From Bacteriovorax sp. Seq25_V (GTDB taxonomy: Bacteria; Bdellovibrionota; Bacteriovoracia; Bacteriovoracales; Bacteriovoracaceae), in NCBI RefSeq assembly GCF_000447795.1, contig NZ_AUNI01000013.1, positions 1-52,093 on the forward strand: DNA of 52,093 nt, given 5' to 3'. How positions within the stretch are numbered: the stretch's first letter is position 1; each line of letters begins with the position of its first letter. Shown one piece after another: positions 42,045-49,256 of the stretch. A model generated the notes under the pieces. That model did no database searches and was not told the origin of the DNA. It saw only the letters and a list, made by a program, of their open reading frames with translations. The translations under genes were made by a program, and so were the position numbers.

Positions 42045-42707
42045 TTAATTGTTTAAACTAGTAATTCGCTCTGGATTATCTCTCAACGCACGTCCCATAA
42101 CAAGATAGTCAGCCCCTCGTTGAAATGCCTCCTCAGGCGTAGATACGCGCTTTTGGTCATTTACTTGATCTTGTTGAAATCTGATCCCAGGACAGATTGT
42201 TAAGATTTTGTCATCTTTTGAAATGTATTTAAGTTCTTGAGTAGAGCAAACAATTCCGTCTAGATGAGATAAGGTCGCTTGTTTGAATAGATTTTTGAAG
42301 GTCAGCTCGAGGTTTTGATTGTAGATACTTTGGCACTCTCTTTCGTCCATTGATGTAAGAACGCTAACTCCAATCAATTTAGTACTTGGGAGATATTCAT
42401 CACAAGCTTTTCTGGCGGCCTGAAGCATTGTTGTTGAGCCGCTGAGATGAATAGTTAAAAAATCAATTTCAAGGGGAGATAGAGATTTGATCGCACTGGC
42501 CACTGTGTTAGGAATATCATGTAATTTAAGATCGAGAAATATTTTTAAATTATATCTACTCTTTAATTCGGTAATAAGTGTTGGCCCATATCTATAAAAT
42601 AATTCCATTCCTATTTTAATAAGCGAGAGATTCTTTGCGTGTAGGTCTAAGAAACTTAAGACCTCTTCTTTAGACATATTATCTAGAGCAAGAAAAATTC
42701 TATTCAT
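42045..42707 (-). CDS. pyrF: Orotidine 5'-phosphate decarboxylase
   Basis: The protein (220 residues) converts OMP to UMP, the last step of UMP synthesis. It starts at the ATG MNRIFLALDN; the active-site signature FLDLKLHDIPNT (Asp, Lys, Asp) is clear, with ICPGIR and YLVMGRAL near the phosphate site. A longer frame would start inside carAB and is unlikely. The ATG overlaps the carAB stop (ATGAATAG), so translation is coupled. It is the last gene of pyrB-carAB-pyrF. Confidence 0.95.
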   Translation of the reverse strand: MNRIFLALDNMSKEEVLSFLDLHAKNLSLIKIGMELFYRYGPTLITELKSRYNLKIFLDLKLHDIPNTVASAIKSLSPLEIDFLTIHLSGSTTMLQAARKACDEYLPSTKLIGVSVLTSMDERECQSIYNQNLELTFKNLFKQATLSHLDGIVCSTQELKYISKDDKILTICPGIRFQQDQVNDQKRVSTPEEAFQRGADYLVMGRALRDNPERITSLNN

Positions 42708-45700
42708 ATTTTTTGTTCCCATCAAAATGATTCGCGGTAATTTCTTGTAAAGCAAGAGGAGAAGAATCTTTAATATTTCCATGGATCATTGACTCACAAA
42801 CGGCCTTTATATTTTCAAGCCGTGTAAAGCAAGGAACTCCATAAGAGATTGCAATATTTCTAATTATTTCTCCATGATTTTTTGATTTTCCTTGATTCAT
42901 TGGAGTATTAAATACAGCTACTAGATGATCGTCTTTTATCGCATCAATCATGGCCACGCCCTTCACATGTTCATCAAATTTCTCAACAAGCTCACAACTG
43001 AGACCAAGTTGTTTAATGGCATGGTAAGTACCTTTAGTCGCCATAAACTGCATTCCTAATTCATGAAGGGGAGAGAGTAGAGATAAAATTTCATTCTTTG
43101 AGTCATTAGACAGTGATAGAAGTATTTTTCCTGGTCGATCAAGGTTTGGATAATTTCCGAGATATGACTTCATTAGTGCGGTCTCAAGCTTTTTGTCTAT
43201 TCCGAGAGTCTCGCCTGTTGATCGCATTTTAGGCCCAAGAATAATATTGTCTTTTACAAATCGATCAAAAGGAAATGTTGATTGCTTTACAATAAACGCA
43301 TCAAGTTCAAACCGTGTAATATTTGGAATTTCTTTTCCTAGAAGCGCATCAGTTGCAAGCCCTGGTAGGTCAATGTCATAGGCCTTACTTAGAAATGGTA
43401 AGGTTCTTGATCCCCTAGGATTTGCTTCGATACAGTAAATTCGATTTTCTTTAAGTGCAAACTGAAAGTTGACTGGGCCAACGATATTGAGGCGACTGGC
43501 CAGAGTAATCGATAGCCTTTGCATTTTATCGAGATTCTCTTGTGAGATAATAACAGGAGGGGAAATCATTCCTGAATCTCCCGAGTGTACGCCGGCGTGT
43601 TCAATATGTTCACAAACAGTAAAGACGGTATGACCCTTAGTATCTCTTATTAGGTCAACATCATATTCTATTGCGTTTTCGATATAGTTTTCGACTTGAA
43701 ATACTATTGAAGATCCTGAGGCATCATTGTCAAAAATTCCATCCAATTGTGCTAAGTCATTATGACCATTGATGATGAACATACTTTCTCCACCAATTAC
43801 ATAGTTTGGTCTGATGATTACTGGATAGCCAATTTCTGCAATAATATTGAGAAGCTCTTTATGACCCCTGGCCTGTTTTGATACTGTATGATCAAGCTCT
43901 GTCTCCCTTGTTACCATATCAAAACTCTTACGATCTTCTACCAAGTCCAGAGTTTGAAGGTTGGGTCCAAGAAATTTTAATTCATGATATTTTTTTCTAA
44001 AATTTGCTTCAAGGTTTTCTCGAATATTAATTCCTGTTTGACCACTAAATGACGAAATAATGTGATTAGGCCTTTCAAAGTGAAGGATGTCAAAGAGGTC
44101 CTCTGAGTAAAGAGGAGTAAGGTAAAGTCTATCACTACTGTCATAGTCGGTACTTACTGTTTCTGGGTTTGAATTTAGCATGATACTCTTGATACCGTGC
44201 TCGCCGAGTTTTAGGCACCCTTTAACACAAGAGTAATCAAATTCAATTCCTTGGCCAATTCGATTTGGTCCTGAGCCAAATATTGCTGTACTCTTAAACT
44301 CATTTGATAATGGCGTTGGTTCGTTCTGTACCGAGTATGTCGAATAATAGTATGGAGTTCCCGCACTAAATTCTCCTGAACAAGTATCTACCGCCTTGTA
44401 GACTGGGAAGATAGAGTTTTTAAATCTAAGGTCAAGAATATCTTCTTGTTTTTGGTCTGTTAAATGGGCGAGGTATTTGTCTGAGAACCCATACTTTTTA
44501 AAGTTTAAAAGCTGTCCAGGGTTTTGGATTAGTGTTGGATCGTTTTCTAGTTTTCTTTGTAGGATAACGAACTGTTCAAGTTGCTCTATAAACCATTTTG
44601 TAATTTTGGTTTTTTGATAAATATCCTCACTAGTCACTCCAAAGCGAAGGGCCTCTAGACATGTCAATACGGATAGTTCTCTTGGACGTGAAAGTCTATC
44701 CATTACGTATTCTTCACTTGCAATAAATGGAGTAGTTTTTAATTGATTGAGTTTTGGTATTTCTAGACCTTGTTCTGTTGAACGCAGGGCCTTCATTAAG
44801 GCTTCGGTGAAATTTCCTCCAAGAGCAAGTACTTCGCCAACACTTCTCATCTGAGGACCAAGATCTTGTGATGAGGAAGGGAATTTGTTGAATGGAAAAA
44901 TCGGAATTTTAACCGCGACATAATCAAGTGTCGGCTCAAAACTAACGGGAGAAACTTTTGTAATGTCATTTAGAATTTCAAAGAGAGTTAATCCAACAGC
45001 AAGTCCAGCAGAAATTTTTGCGATTGGATACCCCGTCGCTTTAGATGCTAATGCAGAAGATCTTGATACCCTAGGATTCATTTCAATAACTACAATATCG
45101 TCTTCATCTTCATTGTTAATGGCAAATTGCACATTAGCCCCACCTGCAACAACATTCATATGTTTTGCAATGGTTAAAGACATTTCTCTAAGCTTTTGAT
45201 AACACCTGTCTGATATAGTCTGCGCCGGTGCAACGGTAATTGAATCCCCTGTGTGGATACCGCATGGATCGACATTTTCGATCGAACAAATCACAACTCC
45301 ATTTTTGTTCTTATCGACCATTACCTCGAGTTCAATCTCTTTCCAGCCGAGGAGTGACTTTTCCATTGTTACAGGAAATTTAATATCACTACTGTCAAAA
45401 ATTTCTTTGAGATCATTCTGATTGTAGGCAAGGGCGGCCCCTTTTCCTCCCAGTGCGAAGTCTCTTCTAATAATTAGTGGAAATTCAACTTCTGATTTTG
45501 CAAGTTCGTAAGCGTGCTCTTTAGAAGTCGCTGAAAATCTCTTGCCGGCCTTGTAGCCCAGTTTTTCAAGTTCTTTTGCAAATAACTCTCTGTCTTCAGT
45601 CTTCTTTATCGTGTCGACATTGGCCCCAAGAAGTTTTACCCCATTACGAGAGAGAAACTCCTCTTCTTCAAGCTCAATACAGATATTTAGTGCAGTCTGT

Positions 45701-47160
45701 CCTCCCATTGTTGAGAGAACAGCATCGACATTTTCTTTTTTTATAATTTTTTTGATCGTATCTTTAGTGATTGGTTCAATATAAGTTTTAAAACTCATAT
45801 TCTTGTCCGTCATAATTGTTGCTGGATTTGAATTCAAAAGGACGACTTCAATTCCTAACTCTTTATATGCTTTTAGTGCTTGGGTTCCTGAGTAGTCAAA
45901 CTCTGAAGCCTGACCAATTTTAATTGGACCTGATCCTACTAATAGAATTTTTTTGATCTCGCTATTTAATTTTCCCTGGTGATAAGTTGGTAGTGCTTGT
46001 ATATCTTCCGATTTGAATGTCAGTTTCTTCCCATTTATAAGAAAATCTCTAATTTCATCAAAGAATACCGCTGCATCTGTTGGCCCAGGATTGGCCTCTG
46101 GATGAAATTGTACAGAACGAATATTAGAGTCAGTGCTTCTTATCCCTTCAATTGATCTGTCAAAAAGCGAAGTGTACTCACAGACAAATTCACGCCCACT
46201 TGAATTGCAGTTACGGAGTTTTGAAAAAGAGCTTTCTTCAATCGCATATCCATGATTTTGAGCAGTGATCAGTAAATTTCCAGTGATGTGATCAAATACG
46301 GGGTGGTTTGAGCCTCTTTGTCCAAATGGAAGCTTAAACGTGTCCATCCCAAGAGCTAAACCGATTAACTGATGACCAAGGCAGATCCCACGAATTGGAA
46401 TGTCTGTTTTTAAAAGCGCTGCAATTGTTTGTATTTGATCTTTATATAGTTTTGGGTCTCCTGGTCCATTTGATAGAAAAATTAATGATGGTGACAGAGC
46501 TAGAATATCATCGCTTGTGGCACTATAAGGTAGTTCAACAACTGGTAGACCAAAGCTTAGTAAGTTATTTGTGATTGCCTGCTTTATTCCATAGTTTATG
46601 ATGACTATAGGCTTTTCACCTTCTCTATGTATCTTTTTTGTCGCAATAGAGACGCGCCTAAGATCATTGCAAATCAAATTGTCACTTTCAAAATCATTTA
46701 TTGATGGTGGTGCTTCAGAGCTTGTGATTATTGCCTTATGATTTTTAGACTTTGTTGATAGGTACTTTGTAAGTGCCCTTGTGTCGACATCTGAGATTAG
46801 CGGAGTATCGATTTGGTTGAAGAATTCATTATAAGAGAAGTTTCTTGCAATCAATGTTTTTGCGTGAACCTTCTGTGATTGCAAGACTCTCTCGTCTGCG
46901 GCATAGTTTCCGATATGGGCACTTGTGTAGATAATATGTTGTCCGAGAAATGATGGGTCAGTTGCCGTTTCCTGGTAACCTGACATTGATGTCGTGAAGG
47001 CCGCTTCTGCGATGAGTATGTCTTCAAAATTTGGGATGTTAATGAATCCTTGAAAAGTTGTGCCGTCAATGAAATGAATATAAATAGGAGATTGTTTGAG
47101 AGAATCTTGAAAAGTTTTTTCGTCGTGAATAAATTTTTTAGGTATTCCTGATTCTCTCAC
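42700..47160 (-). CDS. carAB: Fused carbamoyl-phosphate synthase (CarA-CarB)
   Basis: The 1486-residue protein makes carbamoyl phosphate from glutamine, bicarbonate and two ATP. The CarA part (about 1-390) has an N-terminal domain and a class I amidotransferase with nucleophile C260 in GICLGHQLIG and H353/E355 in QFHPEANPGP. A linker of about 20 residues follows, then CarB (from about 403, KKILLVGSGPIKIGQ) with both ATP-grasp halves. The C-terminal allosteric MGS-like domain ends the protein (from about 1350). In most bacteria carA and carB are separate; here one frame covers both without a break. I chose a GTG start with AGGAG 6 bases upstream; a TTG at 47196 is possible. It overlaps pyrB and pyrF. 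Confidence 0.93.
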   Translation of the reverse strand: MRESGIPKKFIHDEKTFQDSLKQSPIYIHFIDGTTFQGFINIPNFEDILIAEAAFTTSMSGYQETATDPSFLGQHIIYTSAHIGNYAADERVLQSQKVHAKTLIARNFSYNEFFNQIDTPLISDVDTRALTKYLSTKSKNHKAIITSSEAPPSINDFESDNLICNDLRRVSIATKKIHREGEKPIVIINYGIKQAITNNLLSFGLPVVELPYSATSDDILALSPSLIFLSNGPGDPKLYKDQIQTIAALLKTDIPIRGICLGHQLIGLALGMDTFKLPFGQRGSNHPVFDHITGNLLITAQNHGYAIEESSFSKLRNCNSSGREFVCEYTSLFDRSIEGIRSTDSNIRSVQFHPEANPGPTDAAVFFDEIRDFLINGKKLTFKSEDIQALPTYHQGKLNSEIKKILLVGSGPIKIGQASEFDYSGTQALKAYKELGIEVVLLNSNPATIMTDKNMSFKTYIEPITKDTIKKIIKKENVDAVLSTMGGQTALNICIELEEEEFLSRNGVKLLGANVDTIKKTEDRELFAKELEKLGYKAGKRFSATSKEHAYELAKSEVEFPLIIRRDFALGGKGAALAYNQNDLKEIFDSSDIKFPVTMEKSLLGWKEIELEVMVDKNKNGVVICSIENVDPCGIHTGDSITVAPAQTISDRCYQKLREMSLTIAKHMNVVAGGANVQFAINNEDEDDIVVIEMNPRVSRSSALASKATGYPIAKISAGLAVGLTLFEILNDITKVSPVSFEPTLDYVAVKIPIFPFNKFPSSSQDLGPQMRSVGEVLALGGNFTEALMKALRSTEQGLEIPKLNQLKTTPFIASEEYVMDRLSRPRELSVLTCLEALRFGVTSEDIYQKTKITKWFIEQLEQFVILQRKLENDPTLIQNPGQLLNFKKYGFSDKYLAHLTDQKQEDILDLRFKNSIFPVYKAVDTCSGEFSAGTPYYYSTYSVQNEPTPLSNEFKSTAIFGSGPNRIGQGIEFDYSCVKGCLKLGEHGIKSIMLNSNPETVSTDYDSSDRLYLTPLYSEDLFDILHFERPNHIISSFSGQTGINIRENLEANFRKKYHELKFLGPNLQTLDLVEDRKSFDMVTRETELDHTVSKQARGHKELLNIIAEIGYPVIIRPNYVIGGESMFIINGHNDLAQLDGIFDNDASGSSIVFQVENYIENAIEYDVDLIRDTKGHTVFTVCEHIEHAGVHSGDSGMISPPVIISQENLDKMQRLSITLASRLNIVGPVNFQFALKENRIYCIEANPRGSRTLPFLSKAYDIDLPGLATDALLGKEIPNITRFELDAFIVKQSTFPFDRFVKDNIILGPKMRSTGETLGIDKKLETALMKSYLGNYPNLDRPGKILLSLSNDSKNEILSLLSPLHELGMQFMATKGTYHAIKQLGLSCELVEKFDEHVKGVAMIDAIKDDHLVAVFNTPMNQGKSKNHGEIIRNIAISYGVPCFTRLENIKAVCESMIHGNIKDSSPLALQEITANHFDGNKKYE

Positions 47161-48121
47161 TAATGTCTCCTGGGATTTTCTTATATTGTGAACCAATATG
47201 ATGGTCTTCGTTATTAATCATTGCTTCAATTATCGCCATTCTCACAAAAACAGAGTTTTGTACCTGCTTGTGTGCCATCCATATCTCGGAGTTAACAATG
47301 TCCTGTTCGACTTCTATGCCAATATTTGCTGGCCCTGGATGAAAGACTGGGAGTACTTTTGAGTGTTTTCTAAAACGATCAAAAGTTAGTCCCCATTCTT
47401 GCTGGTAATTTTTAAGTTTGTCTGAGATCGACTTATCATGTCTTTCAGTTTGAACGCGGAGTAAATAGATAGCGTCTGATTGTTCAATTGCTTCATCGAG
47501 ACTCGTGACACGGTTTACTCCTGCTGGCATCTCTTCTGGGATGAAAAAGTCAGGTCCACAGAGTAGTACATTTACACCAAATTGTGGAAGTAGGTCTGTT
47601 AGGGAATGAGTTACTCTCGAGTGGATACAATCTCCAACAATTGAAATTGTTTTCCCCTTAATATTCTTGAGGCCGCCGAAGTGATCTTGTAACGTATAGA
47701 GATCTAGTAGTGCTTGTGTAGGATGTTGATTAATTCCATCTCCTCCGTTAATTATTTTAATTGGAGGATATTCTCTAAATTGATCTAGGAGGTGTGATTC
47801 GTTAGTTCGAATTATACAAATATCAACACCCTGATATTTCAATGTGAGGAGTGTCTGTTCAAGAGATTCACCTTTTTTAAGTGAAGAGCTCTCTGCATGG
47901 AAATCAATATGGTATCCACCAATTCTCATGATTGCCATAGCGAATGATAATTTTGTTCTTGTGGAATTTTCGAGGAATGAAGTAGCAACAGCTAAGGTTT
48001 TTTGCAAGGGAAGACGAGGGGGCTGACCTGATTTAAGGTCATTCGTCCTACGAAGCAAGGCCTTAATATGGCCAAGTTCTAGGTCTTTAATTCCTTCTAA
48101 TATTGAAGGGAAAGCAGACAT
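47138..48121 (-). CDS. pyrB: Aspartate carbamoyltransferase catalytic chain
   Basis: The 327-residue protein joins carbamoyl phosphate and aspartate, the second step of pyrimidine synthesis. The carbamoyl-phosphate loop FLENSTRTKLSF, the HPTQALLDLYTL motif and the end motif HPGPANIGIE are visible (the usual Arg after Asn in HPGPxNRG is Ile here). AAGGA precedes the ATG at 48121; an upstream TTG is less likely. carAB starts within its last 23 bases. It lies in a pyrB-carAB-pyrF operon, so substrate made by CarAB is used by the neighbouring enzyme. No pyrI or pyrC gene is seen here. Confidence 0.95.
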   Translation of the reverse strand: MSAFPSILEGIKDLELGHIKALLRRTNDLKSGQPPRLPLQKTLAVATSFLENSTRTKLSFAMAIMRIGGYHIDFHAESSSLKKGESLEQTLLTLKYQGVDICIIRTNESHLLDQFREYPPIKIINGGDGINQHPTQALLDLYTLQDHFGGLKNIKGKTISIVGDCIHSRVTHSLTDLLPQFGVNVLLCGPDFFIPEEMPAGVNRVTSLDEAIEQSDAIYLLRVQTERHDKSISDKLKNYQQEWGLTFDRFRKHSKVLPVFHPGPANIGIEVEQDIVNSEIWMAHKQVQNSVFVRMAIIEAMINNEDHHIGSQYKKIPGDISERIRNT

Positions 48122-48133
48122 TACTATCCTTTT

Positions 48134-48169
48134 CAACTATAATTTCGTATGATTACCTTATTATAGTTG
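48134..48169. promoter_or_regulatory. Symmetric divergent promoter/operator between pyrB and the 48216 gene
   Basis: CAACTATAAT (48134-48143) and ATTATAGTTG (48160-48169) are perfect 10-bp inverted repeats with 16 bases between. Each arm contains TATAAT in the direction pointing inward. Plus transcripts would start near 48150 and minus transcripts near 48153. The -35 boxes are poor on both sides, which suggests an activator or a shared regulator bound to the palindrome. Confidence 0.55.
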
Positions 48170-48215
48170 ATGCTGTGAATTTTAATAATAGTAGAAAAGA
48201 AATAGTCTTTTGGCC

Positions 48216-49256
48216 ATGAAAATAAATAAAGAATTTAAAACCATTCACAATAACATTCAAAAAGAAGCCTTGATTAATGAAATTAAAGGCAATCTCTTTG
48301 AATATCTTGTCGCTCATCATTGTGCCAAGCGTCTGAAAATTGAGAATGCTTTTCTCGAAAGCTTTAGTGGCGATATGAAGAGTATGTTGATGACTTATGA
48401 AAAATGGCTTCGTCAAAATGATCGAGAACTAATTTCTAAGTTACAAACACTTTCTATGAAAACTTCTAATGAGGTTTCGTCTTATATAGAAAGTATTTTG
48501 AATGAAGGTGAGATCATAAAGACGATTGTGGTTATTGGAAAAATTACTGGTGGCCATCATAATGATATCTTCAAGGAAGCCGATATCATCTTTAGTACAA
48601 GTGAAAGGGAAATCCCATTAAGCCTAAAACTCTCAAAGAAGAATGCTTTTGTTAACACAAAAAGCGCTGGTGCAAAGAGTTTTGTTTCAAAGTATTTTGA
48701 TGGCTTTGTGGAAGCTCCAATTTTTCAAAGTACGTATAATGATATTATAGATAAACTCTTCTTTGAGCTGGGTGAAAAGTTATACGAACGTCATGGGCTC
48801 GAGTTTTCTGGACGCTTCGATTCTACTTGGGATGGCCCAGACTTACCTGGTGAGCTCGATGAAGAGGATCGCGCTGACCTTCATTATATGTATCAGGAGT
48901 TATCCCGAAATCTCTATCAAACACTTAAGCAGTTTTTTGAGATTTCCCCTGATCGTTTCATGGCATCTCTCTTTCCACTTTTAGGTCAGGGGAGTGATAA
49001 TCTCATTCAAGTAACCTGTTTTCACCAGGAAAAAGTCATTTCCGGAGTTAAAAATCGTTATGAGTTTTCCTCTGTCAGTATTAAAGATTACGCAACTACA
49101 CATACGGAAGTTGAATTTTTACCATTTAAAGACAGTACCTCTTCTTTTGATATTCGACTTAATGATGATATACTTCAGATCAGAATAAAACCGATGAATA
49201 AGTTTACAACCGCATCATACAAAGTAAATTGCTCAGTGAGATCAATCAATGAATAA
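48216..49256 (+). CDS. Unknown protein, possibly PD-(D/E)XK nuclease-like
   Basis: I do not recognise this 346-residue protein with confidence. It starts with a helical region (KEFKTIHNNIQKEAL). The pattern GNLFEYLVA (E29), then D123 in FKEADIIFST and K138 in IPLSLKLSKK would fit a PD-(D/E)XK nuclease core with an unusual S-x-K. The match is weak and by eye. The C-terminal half is mixed. No signal or membrane segment is seen. It overlaps the next gene by 8 bases (ATGAATAA), so they form an operon. A promoter is shared with pyrB on the other strand. Confidence 0.5.
   Translation: MKINKEFKTIHNNIQKEALINEIKGNLFEYLVAHHCAKRLKIENAFLESFSGDMKSMLMTYEKWLRQNDRELISKLQTLSMKTSNEVSSYIESILNEGEIIKTIVVIGKITGGHHNDIFKEADIIFSTSEREIPLSLKLSKKNAFVNTKSAGAKSFVSKYFDGFVEAPIFQSTYNDIIDKLFFELGEKLYERHGLEFSGRFDSTWDGPDLPGELDEEDRADLHYMYQELSRNLYQTLKQFFEISPDRFMASLFPLLGQGSDNLIQVTCFHQEKVISGVKNRYEFSSVSIKDYATTHTEVEFLPFKDSTSSFDIRLNDDILQIRIKPMNKFTTASYKVNCSVRSINE

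Follow-up and report, generated by a model that had tools for sequence, protein, structure and literature searches.

The carAB gene and its operon

Analysis of the window, by which we mean the entire 52,093-nucleotide stretch from Bacteriovorax sp. Seq25_V, revealed that CarA and CarB, the two halves of carbamoyl phosphate synthetase (CPS), are encoded by one gene. Specifically, an uninterrupted minus-strand frame at 42700–47160, here called carAB, starts with GTG, ends with TAG and comprises 1486 codons, the stop included (1485 aa). The open frame extends to an upstream TTG, the start assigned mechanically (42700–47196, minus strand, 1498 aa). However, the GTG at 47160, which the preliminary description of this DNA also took as the start, is likely the better one, because an AGGAG Shine–Dalgarno sequence (47167–47171, minus strand) lies just upstream of it and the ORF has no ATG within its first 70 codons.

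Pfam analysis placed all domains in order within this one minus-strand frame: CPSase_sm_chain, the CarA N-terminal domain, at residues 43 to 151 (PF00988; 46744–47070), GATase at 199 to 382 (PF00117; 46051–46602), two CPSase_L_D1/D2 modules, D3 at 834 to 913 and MGS at 1369 to 1458 (PF02142; 42823–43092). The GATase is a class I glutamine amidotransferase domain with a Cys/His/Glu triad. It is followed by an inter-subunit linker of ∼28 codons (45964–46047) and by a complete CarB (42778–45963) comprising CPS.A, the oligomerisation domain, CPS.B and the MGS allosteric domain. Thus, the CarA–CarB fusion, the amidotransferase Cys, His and Glu and the complete CarB with its C-terminal allosteric domain, all claimed in a preliminary description of this DNA, are borne out. 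A short linker does join the halves, but it lies slightly above the position "near 45.9 kb" given there. The CarB half matched the NCBIfam model TIGR01369 with 1177.5 bits (cut-off 1027). The CarA half appears diverged, since its score against TIGR01368, 302.7 bits, is ∼5 bits under the cut-off of 307.35; it passed another CarA equivalog, NF009475 (297.7 versus a cut-off of 221). As expected of a single-chain CPS, the CarA and CarB domains share one unbroken frame, and a search of the whole genome (99.97% complete, 21 contigs) found no second CarA or CarB elsewhere.

Comparison of 28 fused sequences with E. coli CarA–CarB (PDB 1A9X, 1JDB) showed that CarA residues C269, H353 and E355 and CarB residues R129, R169, E215, E299, N301, R675, R715, E761, E841 and N843 (E. 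coli numbering) are invariant. The fused enzyme shares with its E. coli counterpart all domains, the catalytic triad and the ATP-grasp residues, and its CarB half is ∼42% identical; it differs in being one chain rather than two and in its diverged CarA half. A CarA domain with a class I amidotransferase triad and two tandem ATP-grasp modules with catalytic residues are the features of a CPS II, and the protein is predicted to be a biochemically ordinary glutamine-dependent CPS, its fused format being an uncommon bacterial variant. In its site-1 loop the fused clade has a signature, RRDFALGG, where RPxFTxGG is otherwise found (RRDFALGGKGAA in the fused enzyme, RPSFTMGGSGGG in E. coli). In the MGS domain, the UMP-site residues K954, T974, T977, K993 and N1015 are kept and T1017 is replaced by Pro, which some of the split enzymes also have. 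At the ornithine site, Gln and Phe stand in for E892 and D1041 of E. coli, respectively, and many split CarB proteins also differ there.

An AlphaFold2 model of residues 13 to 960 (CarA, linker, CPS.A and D3) was of moderate quality (pLDDT 71.6, pTM 0.66). Its best Foldseek matches, over the whole model length, were human CPS1 chains. With VIA-align it superimposed as one chain on human CPS1 5DOU over 827 residues (4.7 Å, Z 37.2), and its CarA on chain B of E. coli 1A9X over 343 residues (2.7 Å, Z 39.5). With moderate confidence, the model suggests that the glutaminase is docked on CPS.A in the usual way, as in human CPS1. The parts required are thus in place, and the fusion may, as the preliminary description proposed, fix the subunit ratio and ammonia channelling.

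The carAB gene lies between pyrB (aspartate carbamoyltransferase; 47138–48136, minus strand), which shares its last 23 nt, stop included, with the beginning of carAB, and pyrF (orotidine 5′-phosphate decarboxylase; 42045–42707, minus strand), the ATG of which overlaps the carAB stop (ATGAATAG). Both genes flank carAB, in the order pyrB–carAB–pyrF, in 34 of the 34 fused loci tested. PyrC and PyrE are present elsewhere in the genome, PyrC on another contig. Adjoining the operon on the opposite strand is the gene for a 348-aa protein with no Pfam match (48210–49256); 33 of 34 relatives have a homologue of it close to their fused operon.

Distribution and phylogeny of the fused gene

The preliminary description had suggested a search for carA–carB fusions across bacterial genomes and trees of both halves. 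A search covered 129 genomes from the order to which the window belongs, and in ∼57 of them (counted by hand from the search table) one frame spanned the junction, mostly with 56 to 68% identity to the window protein. All fused relatives fall within the window's family and span some 20 genera; among named records, those of Halobacteriovorax marinus and Bacteriovorax show this fusion as well. The fusion thus unites a clade of predatory-type bacteria and is not unique to this genome. No paper describing this clade was found in the literature on bacterial carAB fusions. A review mentions in passing that CPS II of bacteria is either a heterodimer or a single fused peptide (PMC6022934); the passage does not say in which organism or give a sequence. 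Hence the earlier statement that bacteria normally have two separate proteins stands insofar as the fused format is uncommon, but a single fused bacterial peptide had already been mentioned.

In the Bacillota survey (199 genomes; best match E 1e-200 or better) no CarA–CarB fusion was found, every listed match to both halves having at least one in-frame stop. Clostridia matches (L038 to L112; ∼40% identity) appeared fusion-like by coverage, but ORF analysis showed the genes to be split, often lying next to each other with only one or a few stops between them. Three long CarA frames (L205 to L207; 545 to 822 aa) were also rejected as fusions; their extra upstream stretches resemble chance open frame and hold no CarB. 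In plasmid records with carAB, the genes are separate wherever annotated. A different arrangement was seen in the Bacillota loci L224, L225, L226 and L227 (genomes G522, G394, G467 and G508), where a single frame of 1350 to 1363 aa encodes CarB with a diaminopimelate epimerase domain fused to its C-terminus (PF01678, E 1e-41 to 1e-57), and carA is a separate gene upstream. L225 seems to retain both catalytic Cys motifs; the other three have partly lost them.

The trees of the two halves, with 86 to 87 sequences each, both recovered the fused proteins as one clade with support 100, and a careful 33-sequence CarB tree also gave this clade. Its stem is very long (1.0 to 1.8 changes per column; ∼1.05 in the trees of 86 to 87 sequences), so its exact placement is uncertain, but it falls on the side of the Bdellovibrionota and proteobacterial enzymes. 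The split enzymes of same-family sister genera (e.g., L157, L164) share with the fused enzyme the reaction and a nearby transcarbamoylase gene; they differ in being ∼42% identical to it and in grouping with Bacillus and Fusobacterium. An approximately unbiased (AU) test of groups defined after the first trees had been seen rejected a clade joining them with the fused enzymes (p = 2.5e-6). The split carA/carB of these same-family genera (L157, L164, L153 and others) group apart from most other Bdellovibrionota and are probably a replacement of the ancestral enzyme. In several split relatives, some of these sister genera among them, carA and carB are adjacent and in the same frame with a single stop between them. 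Although such relatives are not direct ancestors, their arrangement shows how readily a fusion of this kind can arise.

Alternative readings

The single frame could be an artefact of sequencing or assembly, in which two normal genes were joined through a missed stop or a frameshift. Alternatively, it could be genuine and yet give two proteins, either because translation also starts internally or because the linker is cut by proteolysis, making the enzyme the usual heterodimer. For an artefact, nothing was found beyond the general possibility. The one-frame junction recurs in the ∼57 relatives, including assemblies of 2, 5 and 9 contigs (G043, G046 and G003), and because dozens of independent relatives show the identical single-frame junction, a chance or assembly join is excluded. 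The linker bears on both readings. In the alignment, which 47 fused sequences entered, its sequence varies but its length is near-constant, 48 to 51 residues from CarA HPE to CarB KIL in 46 sequences; the remaining, diverged fused member (G020, locus L188) has a much shorter linker. This near-constancy argues further against an artefact, which we consider vanishingly improbable. The variable sequence is what a cleavable linker might show, and an in-frame ATG occurs in 14 of the 46 linkers. However, the almost fixed length speaks against two proteins, 32 of the 46 linkers contain no ATG, and an in-frame check of the window linker found no ATG, GTG or TTG codon. Moreover, a purine-rich Shine–Dalgarno-like stretch is present in only 2 of 46 linkers, both ahead of a GTG. 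Since the window linker has no start codon and few linkers of relatives are Shine–Dalgarno-like, a separately started CarB is unlikely as judged from sequence, and we hold the production of two proteins, by either route, to be quite improbable.

The fused enzyme might also have a eukaryotic connection, the gene having been acquired from eukaryotes or the fusion being shared with them (CAD/CPS1 type), or it might still serve arginine synthesis besides pyrimidines. The domain order is identical to the eukaryotic type, and the site-1 loop FALGG resembles YALGG of human CPS1, not FTLGG. However, human CPS1 groups with Parabacteroides (Bacteroidota) CarB and is well separated from the fused clade, and the match to the E. 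coli CarB chain (826 bits) is stronger than that to the entire CPS1 (731 bits). In addition, the AU test, again with groups defined after the first trees and in which human CPS1, assembled from PDB alignments, was the only eukaryotic sequence, as it was in the trees, rejected a clade of it with the fused enzymes (p = 0.00017). These data speak against common ancestry with the eukaryotic CPS1/CAD lineage, and a eukaryotic connection is extremely unlikely. Because the trees and AU tests place the fused clade apart from both human CPS1 and the same-family split carA/carB, the fusion is best read as an independent bacterial event, separate from the animal one. As for arginine, one CPS serves both pathways in most bacteria, and the genome, 99.97% complete, is still in 21 contigs. 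However, carAB shares its operon with pyrB and pyrF, and the genome has no ornithine carbamoyltransferase (OTC) above the cut-off, the sole match being PyrB, below it, and no ArgG; 14 of 14 control genomes were positive in both searches. The Gln and Phe at the ornithine site point the same way, although many split CarB proteins lack E892 and D1041 too. With OTC and ArgG missing from so complete a genome, and with the pyr operon context that marks a pyrimidine-specific CPS, the fused enzyme most likely serves pyrimidines only, and a continued role in arginine synthesis is unlikely.

Pyrimidine-only use is not universal in the fused clade, as G040 has OTC and G073 and G014 have ArgG. Of the genomes with OTC above the cut-off, 1 is fused and 8 are split, and the link between fusion and loss of arginine synthesis is weak: Since the split relatives also mostly lack OTC, such loss alone would not explain the fusion. 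Several same-family genomes (G023, G055, G058 to G061, G063, G109 and G126 to G128) gave no CarAB match at E 1e-30 and have strong OTC matches (382 to 441 bits) and other transcarbamoylases; their carbamoyl phosphate may possibly come from arginine or citrulline.

Proposed origin and relation to known enzymes

The joint best explanation, to which we assign a probability of about 0.92, is that carAB encodes a one-chain glutamine-hydrolysing CPS of ∼165 kDa, the first enzyme of UMP synthesis, and that the fusion arose once in one Bacteriovoracales clade. In such an enzyme, the N-terminal CarA half would hydrolyse glutamine, and the ammonia would reach the CPS.A site without leaving the protein. 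Carbamate would be formed there and then phosphorylated at the CPS.B site. UMP would probably be sensed by the C-terminal MGS domain, as assumed from its residues, and translation of carAB would be coupled to that of pyrB and pyrF. The single fusion event would date back to an ancestor of one Bacteriovoracales clade (Bdellovibrionota). Most simply, two neighbouring genes that were already in frame would have lost the stop separating them, and the parent carAB would have been of the Bdellovibrionota/proteobacterial type.

Single-chain CPS is well known in eukaryotes. Human CPS1 (PDB 5DOT/5DOU/6UEL) and the CPS part of CAD share with the fused enzyme the order GLN–linker–CPS.A–CPS.B–MGS in one chain of ∼1500 residues, and the model aligns with CPS1 across both halves. 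Human CPS1 differs in not being sister to the fused enzyme in the tree; the latter keeps the glutaminase Cys, is bacterial and lies in a pyr operon. CAD is a CPS joined to dihydroorotase (DHO) and aspartate transcarbamoylase (ATC), whereas the fused enzyme contains neither DHO nor ATC: its ORF ends after MGS, PyrB is an adjacent separate gene and PyrC is encoded on another contig. The yeast arginine CPS (CPA1/CPA2) has two chains, so that the preliminary remark that fusion is known from eukaryotic "arginine enzymes" applies to human CPS1 and not to yeast.

CPS is a textbook bacterial heterodimer that turned into one chain in eukaryotes, and the clade described here would represent a second, independent fusion. 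Its some 20 genera, next to split-gene relatives, offer matched natural pairs in which the effects of fusion on ammonia channelling, subunit ratio and regulation could be asked without invoking anything special to eukaryotes. More speculatively, and in our view doubtfully, the clade may have taken an independent bacterial route to a eukaryote-like, pyrimidine-only single-chain CPS, in which loss of the arginine branch and fusion came with a burst of sequence change (the long stem, new site-1 loop and altered ornithine site), with different regulation and with carbamoyl phosphate perhaps being handed over physically to the co-translated PyrB. In two genomes, G053 and G120, a second, split CarA–CarB pair (L185 and L186, respectively) is present beside the fused gene; in the trees, the CarB of this pair falls with Parabacteroides and human CPS1, which suggests that the pair was gained horizontally.
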